28,738 nt of DNA from a virus: the IMG/VR virus record IMGVR_UViG_3300021964_000369, positions 1-28,738 of that record. One strand, given 5' to 3'. The notes beneath the pieces were generated by a model. That model was not told the origin of the DNA and did no database searches. It saw only the letters and a list, made by a program, of their open reading frames with translations. The translations under genes were made by a program, and so were the position numbers. Positions 3,512-13,533 of this stretch are shown here, piece after piece. Within the stretch, counting starts at the first letter, position 1. Each line of letters begins with the position of its first letter.

Positions 3512-4870
3512 TTACAACTCCGCATCTGCTTCAATGGTGGTCGCATTGGGGGCTTGTCGAATAAACAAACCATTACCGCTAGTGCCACTCAATCCTGTCA
3601 TCGCAACTACACAGCCAGATTTTTTTGAATAATTCACAGAAACAGATGCGGGTGTCTCAACAGAAACTCCACTTTCTTCAACCAAGTTAGTAAAGGGACT
3701 GTTAGTCGTTACAGTAGGGGCAGCCCTCATTACTCTGGGAAATTTCAACGCAACCTTGCCCTCAGTGGAGTTGTGAAAGCTGCCAAAATTGTCTGCGTTA
3801 AACTGCTCTAGGTTGGTGTAATAGCGGCTGCAAGAAAAAAGTTCATCCGCATACGACCGATGCTCAAACGGCGTGGCCTGTTCGCCGACCTCAAGCTGGA
3901 CGCCGGTGATTTCTAATGTTCTGTCAGTGCTGTCAAAAAACATTGTCTGGTCTGATTTGACGGTGTTGGCGTTGCTGATGCTTGCCCAAGTGTTAGAAGT
4001 AAACGTGCCGCCTGTATAGTCGCTGCCAGCTTGCAAATAAATCTGGATACGCAGACTTGCACCGTTATCATTGCCAAACTTCCCGGTGGTGTCAGGGCTG
4101 AAAGTTTTGACGACACGGGTCCAGCCTGTAGTGACATCAAATGTCTGTGTGTTTTGGCGACTGTTGTCGTTGTCTTGCAACTCAATCGTGTATGTCGCTG
4201 ATGCGTTACCCTTTACATAAAATGAAACAGTAAAGCTCTCTGCATCTGAGTAGCCTTTTTTGAATTGCTGCAAATCTTGGCCTTCAATCGCATACTGCAA
4301 AATTGCAATCTCGCCAGCCGCAATAGAAGTGTCTGCGGTAGTGCAATCAAGTTTCAGTGCATGAGCAAAGCCAGACAAATCTGTTACATCTGCCTGTGAT
4401 TGCGTCAACCGGCCCGCTGTTCCGCTGAAGTACATATCAAAACGGTCTACTGTAAAATAACCGGCACTGCCCCCGATGCCGGTCACCGAGGTCGAACGCT
4501 GGGCCACCTGCATCGCACCGTTGATAATCAGGTTCCTGTTGCCATACGGCGCGGCCCACGACAGCGTGCCGCTGCCATTTGTGATTAGCGTCTGCCCGCT
4601 GTCGCCGTCGCCATCGGGCAGGGTGAGCGTGGTGTCGCTCGTCACCGACGCAGGCGCTTGCAGCTTCATCGCCGCGCTGGCGTCATCGTCTGCGAGGCTC
4701 AGGACATCAATGCCGCTTGTTCCATCGGAGAACTCCTTGAGGTGCGTGAGAAGTTCTCGCAGGGCATTATTAACGGCACTGGGGAGCATGCCCTCGTCGA
4801 TGTTTACTCCGCCCACGTCCGTGTTCGAGGCGTTGGTCGCGGAGTAGTCGGTGAGTTTATCCTTCGGCAT
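3512..4870 (-). CDS. Tail fibre / receptor-binding protein with carbohydrate-binding-like C-terminus
   Basis: 452 residues. Residues 1-50 (DYSATNASNTDV, EGMLPSAVNNALREL) match the N-terminus of the next fibre gene at roughly 40 percent identity and are probably the virion attachment domain. NLIINGAMQVAQRS at 113-126 marks the start of the binding region found in many phage fibres. A beta-rich segment of the carbohydrate-binding type follows, closing with VQLEVGEQATPFEHRSY (324-340). The part downstream of about 4500 is visibly richer in AT than the rest of the window, suggesting exchange of the receptor-binding module. The ATG shares a base with the TAA of the upstream fibre gene (TAATG). Confidence 0.85.
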   Translation of the reverse strand: MPKDKLTDYSATNASNTDVGGVNIDEGMLPSAVNNALRELLTHLKEFSDGTSGIDVLSLADDDASAAMKLQAPASVTSDTTLTLPDGDGDSGQTLITNGSGTLSWAAPYGNRNLIINGAMQVAQRSTSVTGIGGSAGYFTVDRFDMYFSGTAGRLTQSQADVTDLSGFAHALKLDCTTADTSIAAGEIAILQYAIEGQDLQQFKKGYSDAESFTVSFYVKGNASATYTIELQDNDNSRQNTQTFDVTTGWTRVVKTFSPDTTGKFGNDNGASLRIQIYLQAGSDYTGGTFTSNTWASISNANTVKSDQTMFFDSTDRTLEITGVQLEVGEQATPFEHRSYADELFSCSRYYTNLEQFNADNFGSFHNSTEGKVALKFPRVMRAAPTVTTNSPFTNLVEESGVSVETPASVSVNYSKKSGCVVAMTGLSGTSGNGLFIRQAPNATTIEADAEL

Positions 4871-5964
4871 TATGCTGTCTCCAATGCTTCGATGCGGGCC
4901 GTCAGGTCAGCGTTGCTTGTCTCTAGTGCCTCAATCTTGGCGATGGCCTCTTTCAATGCGCCGGTCAGCAGCGGCACCAGCTTGCTCTGGTCGATGCCCT
5001 GCATGACAGCGTTGCCGTCGTCGTCCACCTCGTTGTGGGTGCCGGTGACTGCTTCCGGTACGACAGCCTGTGCCTCGTGTGCAAGGAAGCCGTCAACCGT
5101 TGTGTCGGGATGCCGTATAAAGTTGAACCGCTTGGGTGCCAGCGCCTTCACACGGTCGATTGCGCCGGTCATGTCGGCCACATTTTCTTTCAGGCGGTGG
5201 TCTGAGGATGTGTTGTAGCTGGTCGATGACCCGCTGGTGTCGATTGAACCTACATCGCCGTTAGGGTTGTAAAAAATAATTTGCTCACGGGCGGCAGTGC
5301 TAGCACGGGAACAAAGTACGCGGTGGCCGTCATTGCCATCGACTAAAAATGCCTCTCCAAACGGGAACGAAAAGTTCGTCGTTCCCATCATCAGCCGACC
5401 GCTGCTGTCGATGCGCATACGTTCGTTGTTGCCAGCCGTATAAAACTCAAGCTGCTGCCCGGATGAAGTTACGCCAATCCTTGCCCTGTCGGTGTTTGTC
5501 CCCTCATAGTCAAACCGCAGCATCGCATCGCCGCTGCCGCCATTGCTGATGATGACTGTGCCGTCGTTATCGCCACTGTTGTGCGTTGTTCCGAAACGTG
5601 CAGTGGCGCTGCCAGACGCTACTATGGCATCAACCAAATGTGCGGGGCTGCTAGTCCCGATGCCGAAGTTACCCGACGCAACAATCACATCGCCCGTGCC
5701 ATCCGGGTCGAGGCTAATGTTGCCGTTTGTGTCTGTGGACGAGATGGTGTTGCCGTCGATGCGGATGTTATCCACGTTCAGTTGATCCGCGCTGGGCGTC
5801 TCAAGCGCGACCGTGCCGGTGCTGACATCCTTGAGGTCGGCCATCACTTCGCGGATCGCGTTATTAATCCCCGACGCGGCGCAACCTTCCGAGATGTCCG
5901 TTGACTGGACGTCGGTGTTGTTCGCCGCTGTGGCGTCATAATCGCGGATGCTGTTCTTGGCCAT
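4870..5964 (-). CDS. Tail fibre with C-terminal S74 intramolecular chaperone
   Basis: 364 residues. The N-terminal 50 residues (DYDATAANNTDV, EGCAASGINNAIREV) are the paralogous attachment domain shared with the neighbouring fibre. The middle carries beta-strand repeats typical of trimeric fibres (GNISLDPDGTGDVIVASGNF, GIGTSSP). From about 250 a Peptidase_S74 domain follows: SSDHRLKENV (253-262) with candidate catalytic Ser254 and Lys259, then FLAHEAQAVVPEAV and a C-terminal coiled coil (EAIAKIEALETSNADL). In the family this domain helps the trimer fold and then cuts itself off. An upstream gap of 46 bases holds no recognisable site. Confidence 0.9.
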   Translation of the reverse strand: MAKNSIRDYDATAANNTDVQSTDISEGCAASGINNAIREVMADLKDVSTGTVALETPSADQLNVDNIRIDGNTISSTDTNGNISLDPDGTGDVIVASGNFGIGTSSPAHLVDAIVASGSATARFGTTHNSGDNDGTVIISNGGSGDAMLRFDYEGTNTDRARIGVTSSGQQLEFYTAGNNERMRIDSSGRLMMGTTNFSFPFGEAFLVDGNDGHRVLCSRASTAAREQIIFYNPNGDVGSIDTSGSSTSYNTSSDHRLKENVADMTGAIDRVKALAPKRFNFIRHPDTTVDGFLAHEAQAVVPEAVTGTHNEVDDDGNAVMQGIDQSKLVPLLTGALKEAIAKIEALETSNADLTARIEALETA

Positions 5965-10019: not shown

Positions 10020-10311
10020 CGTGTCCCTGATTGTCGTGGTTGATCACCATCGTGCCGTCGACGCTGCTGCCGTCGATGTACGGGTTGTGATGCCACGGGT
10101 CGTGATCTACCCCCGTGAAAAACACCAGCGACGACACAGAATAGCGCGGGTCTTGCACTGTGGTCTGCGTCGTATTCGCCGGGAGCGTGACATACCCGAC
10201 GCTGTTCAAGCCGCCGTTAATCGTGCGGTTCAGGACTTCGGCGATCTCGCGCGTCGTCGCGGTGACCGGGTTGAGTGTGCGGAAGTTGGTGGTGCGCTGC
10301 TCTGTCGTCAT
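9988..10311 (-). CDS. Small conserved virion-region protein
   Basis: 107 residues starting MTTEQRTTNFRTLNPVTATTREIAEVLN and ending with beta-rich segments (YVTLPANTTQTTVQDPRY, FAYLIIG). The pattern FRTLNPVTxTxREIAEVxN followed by a short beta domain is common in marine phage genomes next to the tail nozzle gene; the function there is not established. The start overlaps the upstream TGA by four bases, so it is translationally coupled to the nozzle gene. A small fibre- or tail-associated trimeric protein is plausible. Confidence 0.6.
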   Translation of the reverse strand: MTTEQRTTNFRTLNPVTATTREIAEVLNRTINGGLNSVGYVTLPANTTQTTVQDPRYSVSSLVFFTGVDHDPWHHNPYIDGSSVDGTMVINHDNQGHDAPFAYLIIG

Positions 10312-11768
10312 CGCCTGCCCACCTGCCTAGCCTCGACGTCCATACCCTGCGCGAAGGACCACTGCCCGCTCAGGTTCATGCGCGCGCGGTGGTATCTGCC
10401 CTGCGCCCTGAACGGCGCGAAGCCGTCATCGTTAGGCGACTGCGCCGTGGTGAATGTCACGCTGTCGGTGTGGAGGCCGCGCGTGCCGACCTGCATCGTG
10501 ACGCTGCCGCCCTCGTGATACGGGTAGATGCGGGTCACCATATTGAACTTGCCGGTCGCAAGACCAGCCTCTGCCGTCTCAATCGTGGCGGACAGCGGGT
10601 CGCCCGTGAATGTGTAAATCTTGTCGCCGACAGCGCCACCGAACAGGAACTGCCCGCCCTTGTATAGCGCGCTGTCAAGAGACGCTGGCAGCGCGTCGAG
10701 GCTGGCGTTGATGCTGTCAAGCTGCTCAAGCGTGTAGGCCGGGGTAAAGAACGGCGCAATCAGCCCGGCGCTGACGTTCGCCGTTGACCAGCGCCCGATG
10801 GCGTAGTTGTAAATCAACAGCTTGTCAGGCTCGCCGTCGAGGCTGCTGTTCGACACATACGACCAGACCGCGATCTGGTTCTGCGGGTCAACGCTCGACG
10901 TCATCTTGTCTTTGTAGGCGATATTGAAATCCGAGAAGAAGAACTTGTCCACCTTCTCCGCGCCGATGTTCTGAGACCGGCTGCCGTCAAACGCATAGAA
11001 GCCGTCGTCCGACAAGAAGAATACGGTGTGGCCTATGTTGCACACAGACCCCGGAACCTGACAGCCGCGAGCCGTCTCGACTTTGTCAAACTGCCAGATC
11101 AGCGGCGGGCCGGAGTAAGTGGCACGAACGATGGCACGCTCCATCAGGATCGTGCAATATTCCCCGCCGACCATACCGGTGATGTTGCCCGCGTCGGGTA
11201 TGTCCTGAAAGTCGGACTGCTCCGTGCCAGCCGTCCAGCTTGTGATGTCGTTGAACCCGGACCACTGCACGCGATAGGGCAGGCGGTTGCCCGACCCATC
11301 CTCGACGTTGCCGAGCCACACGAAGTCGCGCACCACCGCGATGAAGTCGGCGTCTGGCGGAGATCCGGCGAGGTCAGCGAACAGCGTGCTGGTGCCGAGG
11401 GTGTAGCGCTGCGGGGCCACACCGATGCCGCCAACTGCGATCACGTCCTTGCCGAACTGAACAAAGCGCCAGCGTTCCTGCGGCGCAGTCAGGGTGTAGT
11501 TTCCGGCCTTGCTGATGTTGTCGAGGCTGCTGTCGGTGCTGTCGAACTCATACAGTTTTGTGTTGTCGCCAGCGAACAGCTTCACGTTGCCGGTGTTGTC
11601 CTTCGCCGCAAAGATGCCGTTTATGTTGCCGTCAGCCGCGCCTGAGTAGGCGACGAACTCCGGCAGGCTGCGATACCCGCCAGCCGCAGGGATGACATTT
11701 TCGGCGCGCGTCACGCCGGGGTTTGAATAGTCAGGCTGATCGGGCAGCCACTCGCCGAACTGTATCAT
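10308..11768 (-). CDS. Tail nozzle / packaged-DNA stabilisation-type protein (beta-propeller like)
   Basis: 486 residues, beta-rich throughout, with repeated strand-turn units ending in aromatic or glycine pairs (FIAVVRDFVWLGN, GHTVFFLSDDGFYAFDGSR, DKLLIYNYAIGRWSTANV). This matches podovirus tail hub or nozzle proteins, a group that includes P22 gp10-like stabilisation proteins and T7 gp12-like proteins; which of these is nearest cannot be told by eye. It plugs the tail below the head-tail adaptor. Residues 356-368 (SLDALPASLDSAL) are almost repeated in the next gene. ATGA overlap with the upstream gene. Confidence 0.7.
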   Translation of the reverse strand: MIQFGEWLPDQPDYSNPGVTRAENVIPAAGGYRSLPEFVAYSGAADGNINGIFAAKDNTGNVKLFAGDNTKLYEFDSTDSSLDNISKAGNYTLTAPQERWRFVQFGKDVIAVGGIGVAPQRYTLGTSTLFADLAGSPPDADFIAVVRDFVWLGNVEDGSGNRLPYRVQWSGFNDITSWTAGTEQSDFQDIPDAGNITGMVGGEYCTILMERAIVRATYSGPPLIWQFDKVETARGCQVPGSVCNIGHTVFFLSDDGFYAFDGSRSQNIGAEKVDKFFFSDFNIAYKDKMTSSVDPQNQIAVWSYVSNSSLDGEPDKLLIYNYAIGRWSTANVSAGLIAPFFTPAYTLEQLDSINASLDALPASLDSALYKGGQFLFGGAVGDKIYTFTGDPLSATIETAEAGLATGKFNMVTRIYPYHEGGSVTMQVGTRGLHTDSVTFTTAQSPNDDGFAPFRAQGRYHRARMNLSGQWSFAQGMDVEARQVGRR

Positions 11769-12490
11769 TGCTGCAACCAGACCTCGCTGCCTGTGGATAC
11801 CGTGGCCCAGACTTCAGAGCCTGCCGCGACATCCGTCCACGTCTCGGTGCCGTCAGCGACTTCCGTCCAGTCTTCGCCCAGCACCTTGCCGCGCATTGTA
11901 GCAGATATCGCCGCGTCTGCGGAACCAGCCCCTGCAAACACACCCACAGACGCGCCTGTGGCGCTCGCTGACAGGCTCGAAGACCCTTGGAGCAGGTACA
12001 CAAGGCTGGATGCCGCTGTGGCCGCCAGTGAGGCTTCTGCGGAGCCGTCTAGGCCGCGCACCGGAGTAATCGCGCCAGCGACTGTGACCGCCACGCTTGC
12101 AGCGCCATCCATCTTGGCGATGAACGACGCGGTGGCGGTGGCGGATGCAGCGCCCGTGACCGATGCGGTCATGTGCTGGATGCGCTGCGCCTCGCCGGTT
12201 GTGGACGCGGATATATTTACGGATGCGTCGAATTGAATGGCGAACTGGATCGCGCCAGTCGCGGTTATTGCGATGTCGGCAGATCCCGGCGCGTGGATAA
12301 CATCGAGGTTCGCAAGCTGTTCAAGCGTGCCGAACGTGTCGAGGCTGTCCATATCGCCCCAAGCGTCTAGCTGCTCCAGCGTCGGGTTCGACCAATCGAC
12401 CCGCGTCAGCAACAACGCGCTGTCCAAAGAATATGGAAGCGCGTCGATGCTGCTCGTGAAGTTGTCTAGGTGCGGGGTGCCGGTTGCCAC
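11765..12490 (-). CDS. Repeat-built minor tail/structural protein (7 x 20 aa plus 3 x 10 aa)
   Basis: 241 residues from GTG at 12490 (AAGGTG five bases upstream). The N-terminal 67 residues are acidic with repeated LEQL and SLD motifs. Residues 68-207 divide without gaps into seven 20-residue units with consensus x-[GA]-[SA]-[AV]-x3-x-[TS]-A-T-[GA]. Residues 208-237 are three 10-residue units W-[TA]-x-V-x-x-G-[ST]-E-[TV], then WLQQ. Such alternating small and beta-branched residues suggest a beta-solenoid or an extended shaft. The gene lies between nozzle and a small structural protein, so a tail needle, shaft or decoration role is likely. Unrecognised beyond that. Confidence 0.75.
   Translation of the reverse strand: MATGTPHLDNFTSSIDALPYSLDSALLLTRVDWSNPTLEQLDAWGDMDSLDTFGTLEQLANLDVIHAPGSADIAITATGAIQFAIQFDASVNISASTTGEAQRIQHMTASVTGAASATATASFIAKMDGAASVAVTVAGAITPVRGLDGSAEASLAATAASSLVYLLQGSSSLSASATGASVGVFAGAGSADAAISATMRGKVLGEDWTEVADGTETWTDVAAGSEVWATVSTGSEVWLQQ
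11780..11869 (-). repeat. Three 10-residue tryptophan repeats
   Basis: The encoded units are WTEVADGTET, WTDVAAGSEV and WATVSTGSEV (residues 208-237 of the structural protein). Spacing is exact at 30 bases and a fourth tryptophan (residue 238) begins a broken copy. Confidence 0.85.
11870..12289 (-). repeat. Seven 20-residue coding repeats, 60-base period
   Basis: Units begin at residues 68, 88, 108, 128, 148, 168 and 188: PGSADIAITATG, DASVNISASTTG, TASVTGAASATA, DGAASVAVTVAG, DGSAEASLAATA, QGSSSLSASATG, AGSADAAISATM (first 12 of each). No insertion or deletion is needed. At DNA level the copies are diverged, so the array is old or under protein-level selection. Confidence 0.85.
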
Positions 12491-12499
12491 GCTATCACC

Positions 12500-12886
12500 T
12501 TATGCTGCGGTGATGTCGAGATCACCCGTCGAGATTTTCAAGATGTCGCCCGATGCGATTGTCTTGGCGGTGGTGAACGCACCGTGGATCAGCAGGTTGC
12601 CAGACGAGGAAGCATCAAAGATCCCGAAATGGGATACCGAACCCCACGATCCCGTGGCAGCCGCGAACTCAATCGCCGCGCTGTTCGAGGTCGTGCCGGA
12701 TGCGGCGGCGCTGAACGTCGCGGAGACGCGGGCGTAATTGTTGCCGGTCAACTCGGTGCCGCTGTTGTCGTCACCGAACGAGCCGGTGGACAGGCCGACA
12801 TATACCGTGGTCGGCATCGTGTACGCGCCGGTTCCGAGGATGTGGTCGAGAATTTCGTTCTCTAGGTAGTCACTCATTGCAGACAT
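12500..12886 (-). CDS. Conserved phage structural protein
   Basis: 128 residues: MSAMSDYLENEILDHILGTGAY, then YVGLSTG, ELTGNNYARVSATFS, WGSVSHFGIFDASSSGNLLI and a beta-rich end (SGDILKISTGDLDI). This ordered set of motifs (YLEN-LLDH-, YxGL, YARV, HFGIFDA-SGNLL) defines a widespread phage protein family annotated as minor head or tail protein. GGAG lies eight bases ahead of the ATG at 12886; the ATG at codon 4 (12877) is a possible alternative. It is probably a small virion or tail-attached component. Confidence 0.7.
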   Translation of the reverse strand: MSAMSDYLENEILDHILGTGAYTMPTTVYVGLSTGSFGDDNSGTELTGNNYARVSATFSAAASGTTSNSAAIEFAAATGSWGSVSHFGIFDASSSGNLLIHGAFTTAKTIASGDILKISTGDLDITAA

Positions 12887-12888
12887 TT

Positions 12889-13533
12889 TTAACTCTCCAC
12901 TGCTGCGTTCTGGCGGGCGTAAATGCTGCTGATCTGCAACGACCCAGTCCCGTAATGCGCGCGCTGCTCGTCAACCTTGATCTCTTCGAGCGCAAGGTTG
13001 AAGCGTTGCAGATACTGCGACGCGCGCTGTTCGTCTAGGAGGTAAGCATACGCCTCCGCAAGCGCGCCGTATAGGTAGGCATCAGGCGAACGCGACAGGA
13101 TGTTGTTCGTGGCGTTGCTATCGGACAGGGCCGTGACCGTGCCGATGTAGATGATTTCGGCGGTGTACCCGCTGTCAGGGATCGGGCGCAGCTTCATCTC
13201 GTCGCCGACGATGCTAAAGCCGAGCGGCTTGCTTGTACCGCCGGACGAGAACTTCTGATCCAGCGCGACCGGGCTGTAGTAGGTCAGCACCGTGACCGGG
13301 GTCGTATTCAGCTTAACCTCGCGAACCTCGCGCAGGTCCGTCGGCAGCGCGATGTATTCGTCGCTTGCCGTCAGCGTTGCGGTGGCGCGTTTCTCCTGAC
13401 TGCGCGTCTCAAGCTCGCGAGACATGCGCGCCTCGGCAAGCTGGATGAAGTCGGGGATGACGCTGGTCAGGTCATCACGCGCAAGGAAGTTGGCTATCGC
13501 CGACTTCAATTCGCTGTAGGTTGTAATAGCCAT
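12889..13533 (-). CDS. Head-tail adaptor (phage adaptor protein, P22 gp4/T7 gp11-like)
   Basis: 214 residues. The N-terminal pattern YSELKSAIANFLARDDLTSVIPDFIQLAEARMSREL is typical of the phage adaptor family that binds below the portal ring. It is followed by a beta region (YIALPTDLREVREVKL, LRPIPDSGYTAEIIYIGTV) and a C-terminal helical hairpin (YLYGALAEAYAYLLDEQRA, FNLALEEIKVDEQRAHYG). It lies directly downstream of the capsid block and upstream of the nozzle, the usual position. The ATG shares a base with the upstream TAA (TAATG). Confidence 0.85.
   Translation of the reverse strand: MAITTYSELKSAIANFLARDDLTSVIPDFIQLAEARMSRELETRSQEKRATATLTASDEYIALPTDLREVREVKLNTTPVTVLTYYSPVALDQKFSSGGTSKPLGFSIVGDEMKLRPIPDSGYTAEIIYIGTVTALSDSNATNNILSRSPDAYLYGALAEAYAYLLDEQRASQYLQRFNLALEEIKVDEQRAHYGTGSLQISSIYARQNAAVES

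Follow-up and report, generated by a model that had tools for sequence, protein, structure and literature searches.

A 20-residue repeat protein encoded beside a gp80-like bead gene as the probable rope of a beaded fibre in a short-tailed bacterial virus

Next to the tail nozzle gene of an uncultivated virus (IMG/VR record IMGVR_UViG_3300021964_000369) lies a gene for a 241-residue protein built largely of tandem repeats, and the question is what such a protein contributes to the virion. The whole 28,738-nucleotide stretch that was analysed is referred to here as the window. On its minus strand the genes run in the order SU10_adaptor, a 128-residue bead protein, the repeat protein and the nozzle. 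The head-tail adaptor of the SU10_adaptor family is encoded at 12889..13533 (Pfam PF24175, E 2.6e-37), the bead protein at 12500..12886, the repeat protein at 11765..12490 and the tail nozzle at 10308..11768 (phmmer match to PDB 8zkm_E, 'nozzle', E 2.5e-12; phrog_3287, E 1.7e-87). The repeat gene starts with GTG about 10 nt past the stop of the bead gene and ends in a 4-nt overlap with the start of the nozzle gene. A preliminary description had taken the product for a tail or fibre component beside the nozzle, and this assignment is supported; that account mentioned neither the partner gene upstream, nor the conserved module that residues 1-67 form at the N-terminus, nor a conserved 'ASVTGA' marker unit.

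Residues 68-237 of the repeat protein correspond exactly to 11780-12289. Residues 68-207 fall without gaps into seven 20-residue units, all on the minus strand: unit 1 (residues 68-87, 12230..12289), unit 2 (88-107, 12170..12229), unit 3 (108-127, 12110..12169), which holds the marker ASVTGA, unit 4 (128-147, 12050..12109), unit 5 (148-167, 11990..12049), unit 6 (168-187, 11930..11989) and unit 7 (188-207, 11870..11929), with a conserved LGED at its end followed by W208. BLOSUM autocorrelation, scored against 2000 shuffles of the same composition over offsets 5 to 49, gives z = 6.6 at offset 20 and z = 6.5 at offset 40, no other offset in that range exceeding 2.5, so that the seven-unit division of the preliminary description is borne out. 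The three 10-residue Trp units that follow (residues 208-237, 11780..11869, with a fourth Trp at W238) had likewise been placed exactly. The Thr-Gly/Ala turn described as fixed is a tendency only: of 189 family units, 68% have Thr at position 11 and 68% have Ala or Gly at position 12. These units share the pattern x-G-S-A-S-V-A-V-T-A-T-A, after which comes a linker rich in R/F-I/V-R/F; mostly tiny residues (S, T, A) line one face of the strand, and A, V or I the other.

Searches with the repeat protein returned no significant profile match in Pfam (best E 0.26) or PHROG (best E 0.041) and no match in a PDB sequence search; 77 loci with relatives were recovered from IMG/VR. Within this family both ends of the protein are strongly conserved and the units are variable, diverged in sequence yet in register. 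The Trp residues at 208, 218, 228 and 238, spaced by 10, are invariant in 35 aligned homologues, and GEDW followed by three Trp is found in 87 of 90 distinct relatives. The Trp units may be a docking face. The N-terminal module (12290..12490, minus strand), which carries the motifs LDNFTSSIDALPYSLDSAL and PTLEQLDAWGDMDSLD and is conserved, is probably an anchor; a similar motif occurs in ropes of Desulfovibrionaceae prophages (L280, L283, L284 and L291). A segment of the nozzle, LEQLDSINASLDALPASLDSAL (10665..10730, minus strand), resembles the SIDALPYSLDSAL motif of this module, and the common motif, TLEQLD..S.DALPxSLDSAL, is present in both nozzle and repeat protein here and in about 11 relatives. 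Nozzle and repeat protein may perhaps bind one partner through it, and, judged from sequence, the likeness of SIDALPYSLDSAL to SLDALPASLDSAL of the nozzle hints that this end of the chain meets the nozzle region. Elsewhere in the window, two adjacent tail fibre genes (3512-4870 and 4870-5964) begin with a similar segment of about 45 residues (..YxATxxxNTDV..), past which one has a weak CBM-like match and the other an S74 chaperone domain.

Length varies among the relatives by whole units, a check that the preliminary description had named, with 6, 7, 8 or 10 units counted by eye from the sequences. In one closely related pair (L042 and L044, 97% identical in aligned DNA) a single 60-nt unit in one corresponds to a two-unit cassette in the other. 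The marker [AGT]SVTGA is present in 80 ropes of 187-442 aa, and in every one of them it precedes GEDW by exactly 3.8 or 4.8 units, irrespective of protein length, indicating that units are added mostly towards the N-terminus and that the C-terminal register is kept. By inspection, occasional 21-residue units are found on the N-terminal side. Two 220-residue ropes (L163 and L147) have a second LEDLDQLGSMDQLDYYGTLEVLDDL module in the C-terminal part, the usual place of the Trp units, which suggests that the LD-rich module and the Trp units are interchangeable plugs. Three 442-residue ropes (L153, L149 and L151) have an extra, globular-looking N-terminal region of about 190 residues, a possible tip or anchor.

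The clearest clue to function comes from the gene upstream. The 128-residue protein matches Pfam PF23140, 'Podophage GP4 fiber I protein gp80' (Gp80), at E 4.7e-47, and its AlphaFold2 model (pLDDT 93.1, pTM 0.87) finds 8jou_a as its best PDB match with Foldseek (E 3.8e-8, TM 0.86), an entry entitled 'Fiber I and fiber-tail-adaptor of phage GP4'; the next matches come from the Bas63 connector and from the neck of Sf14. By sequence and by fold, the upstream gene is the bead of GP4 fibre I (gp80). The repeat protein had been described as not recognisable from a known phage family, and this holds for its direct relatives in sequence, none of which is characterised, but the two genes together correspond to the bead and rope of GP4 fibre I. 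The bead gene is directly upstream of the repeat gene in 71 of 71 IMG/VR relatives with enough upstream sequence, and the repeat gene directly follows the bead gene at 148 of 149 related bead loci; these two sets overlap because the loci of both searches were pooled. The pairing of bead and repeat gene is obligate in this family.

On this evidence the repeat protein is likely to be the rope of a GP4-type 'beads on a rope' fibre of a short-tailed bacterial virus, threading gp80-like beads. The upstream gene would make the bead, which is dimeric in GP4, and each 20-residue unit would form a strand of alternating tiny residues with a short linker. The extended chain would pass through the beads with one of its seven units for each bead or bead dimer, and unit number would set the length of a flexible beaded fibre; each repeat probably accommodates a single bead or bead pair, and for the window seven beads or bead dimers are predicted. 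The N-terminal LD module, the C-terminal Trp units or both may anchor one end in the nozzle or adaptor region and present the other. Physical threading or binding, the stoichiometry of one unit per bead, the role of the Trp units and the polarity are the parts of this model that we infer.

The same association was then sought at divergent bead loci, retrieved with three divergent beads and reduced to 47 representatives with less than 70% bead identity. A best period of 19-21 with z>3 was found in the gene after the bead at 18 of 37 viral loci and in 13 of 266 genes at other positions (Fisher p 3.5e-11). In a prophage and genome set of 42 loci, none of which had been used in forming the hypothesis, the corresponding figures were 20 of 37 and 10 of 252 (Fisher p 7e-14), and at z>4 the period was exactly 20 in 16 of 17 genes following the bead. 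Under strict dereplication (beads less than 60% identical to each other and to all viral beads) a period-20 next gene was seen in 6 of 16 cases against 5 of 106 elsewhere (p 6e-4). Away from the position after the bead, the background rate of a period near 20 is about 4-5%. Shuffling was done in 60-residue blocks, thereby controlling for regional composition, and only the bead's own strand entered the statistics, because spurious antisense ORFs arose in GC-rich loci when genes were called in all six frames. The genome scan used a narrower bead profile in place of a distant one that was too variable. The 20-residue period recurs across bacterial phyla among the prophage loci, and about half of the divergent bead loci had no period-20 next gene at this sensitivity, some having one nearby.

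The loci with the period include characterised phages. In GP4-like Burkholderia phages the gene after gp80 (BcepIL02 gp56, z 9.1; BcepMigl gp57, z 4.3) is annotated as virion-associated, and this gene of the GP4 clade is, by its repeats and position, a candidate for the rope gene of GP4 fibre I. A 20-residue period is also found beside the bead genes of the mycobacteriophages Phlyer (gp33, z 8.4) and ChrisnMich (gp29, z 7.1), where rope-type repeats are followed by a Gly-rich, tip-like region, as well as in Itty13 (z 4.3), PVJ1 (z 5.5) and SP-15 (best period 21, z 6.1). The two mycobacteriophage proteins (L298:2756-3958 and L299:2821-3978) are annotated as 'minor tail proteins' and the adjoining bead gene as 'head protein'. 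In Firmicutes phages and prophages the ropes are fused at the C-terminus to Mu gp48 or SPP1 Dit domains, which are tail-tip parts. The same bead-rope gene pairing thus recurs in many unrelated phages, including well-studied mycobacteriophages. Bead genes with no recognisable rope nearby are found in the large phages Caulobacter CcrC3 (L301), Stenotrophomonas YB07 (L303) and Acidovorax ACP17 (L300), the bead gene of YB07 coming after the baseplate hub lysozyme. Among 247 bead ORFs there was no natural bead-rope fusion, only a tandem double bead (L242:4001-4813), one gene with two tandem bead domains and hence a natural covalent bead dimer. Mass spectrometry of JC1 virions detected the bead gp53 and not the rope-equivalent gp54, an outcome that fits a low copy number (one rope, many beads) and fits absence as well.

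Two other readings of the repeats themselves were weighed. From 35 homologues, AlphaFold2 places a strand every 20 residues in the repeat protein (71-77, 91-97, 111-117, 131-137, 151-157 and on) at a mean pLDDT of 46.6 and a pTM of 0.35, and a fold search with this model gave noise only, with zero PDB matches at E <= 0.001, as is expected at such a pLDDT; an alignment of similar size gave a pLDDT of 93 for the bead. A self-standing beta-solenoid, which the alternation of small and beta-branched residues had led the preliminary description to propose, is therefore unsupported, although low confidence on a repeat protein is compatible with a solenoid too. A poor model of this kind would also be the outcome expected of a chain that folds only on its partner. 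That the repeats form a solenoid or a trimeric beta-fibre shaft, the bead being merely a neighbouring virion protein, agrees with the residue alternation, the strict period and the predicted strands, but, given the low confidence, the lack of a significant fold match and the association of period-20 genes with the bead gene in phages whose tails differ greatly, we consider it unlikely. Very improbable in our estimation is a flexible low-complexity spacer of small-residue repeats expanded by slippage, with no defined partner per unit: a composition rich in Ser, Ala, Thr and Gly, the disorder-like AlphaFold2 confidence and the whole-unit length changes would suit it, yet the C-terminal units are held at exactly 20 residues in 80 family members, the figure of 20 recurs across bacterial phyla, and the units are diverged but in register and accompanied by a conserved marker unit and invariant Trp.

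A further proposal refines the rope reading rather than replacing it, in that the C-terminal Trp units or the N-terminal module would be a receptor-binding part and the rope would carry an adhesin. The mycobacteriophage proteins, in which rope and tip-like region are joined in one chain, indicate that a rope can carry a tip. However, strongly conserved ends beside variable units in the window family look more like assembly contacts, and the C-terminal fusions in prophages are Dit or Mu gp48 domains, that is, tail-tip anchors, which leaves a receptor-binding role for the ends doubtful.

If the repeat protein is a rope, a simple rule follows: 20 residues of rope per bead. Fibre length could then be told from sequence, phages would alter it by gain or loss of whole units, and every relative would hold a candidate gene for the GP4 fibre I rope. 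The more general finding behind the observed repeats is a conserved 20-residue unit in a bead-plus-rope gene pair. A broader proposition, to which we give about an even chance, is that this unit serves tailed phages generally as a code for docking gp80-like beads, with its copy number as a ruler for bead count and with rope ends that can be exchanged like plugs (Trp units, tips, and Dit or Mu gp48 domains). If true, the code would span podo-, sipho- and myovirus types and prophages of many bacterial phyla, and the repeat proteins long overlooked next to genes called 'head protein', in mycobacteriophages and elsewhere, would be fibre ropes. This would give a likely function to many unannotated or misannotated phage genes, among them those labelled 'head protein', 'minor tail protein', 'E3 ubiquitin-protein ligase HERC6' and 'serine-rich adhesin'. 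The bead and the GP4 fibre are already known; that the repeat gene encodes the rope, and that this holds generally, appears to be new, though the GP4 study may already name the rope gene.

Fibre I of GP4 reportedly has five gp80 dimers, which an elongated 'rope protein' holds together (Zheng et al. 2023, J Mol Biol 435:168258). The bead of this fibre (8jou) is homologous to that of the window in sequence and fold, and 20-residue repeats are encoded directly after the bead in GP4-like Burkholderia phages, as they are in the window. The ropes of the GP4 clade differ in having an Arg-rich C-terminus where the window rope has Trp units, together with an LD-rich N-terminal module, and neither their sequences nor their profile matched any chain in the PDB. 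The window also differs in having no homologue of the 15-fold fibre-tail adaptor of GP4 (8jou_D); the BcepIL02 and BcepMigl homologues of that adaptor gave no phmmer match among 17 window proteins. Its fibre anchoring must thus be different, which weakens the claim of a full GP4 architecture but not that of a bead-rope fibre.

Outside this clade, a neck fibre of A-1(L) made by gp80-82 is also beaded, but its beads are head-to-tail gp81 trimers with no rope (PMC10966104); it was rejected as the same architecture and serves as an analogy only. In the Alishewanella phage LSH1, gp35 has an HHpred match to 8JOU (E = 0.0075) and was modelled as a dimer, and the adjoining adhesin gp34 was described as a poorly modelled 'beta helix' suspected to be repetitive (PMC13243795). 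The repeat-like region of gp34 has no confident fold, like the window rope alone; the gp34-gp36 module differs in belonging to a siphovirus and in having the rope-like part fused to the adhesin. The mycobacteriophages Phlyer and ChrisnMich share with the window a 20-residue period beside the bead, but they are siphoviruses in which the rope gene lies before that of the bead and continues into the tip-like C-terminal region. In the Felix O1-like myophage Sf14, gp31 (PDB 9c39) has the bead fold of the window protein, and the Bas63 connector (9mt4) was likewise matched. Sf14 differs in having one bead dimer per whisker, and its gp30 (166 aa) showed no 20-residue repeats when tested for them. However, the gp31 dimers of its whiskers are joined to gp30, a single chain of which threads both whiskers (PMC11821841), and the Sf14 whisker thus provides a structural precedent for a bead fold with a threaded chain.
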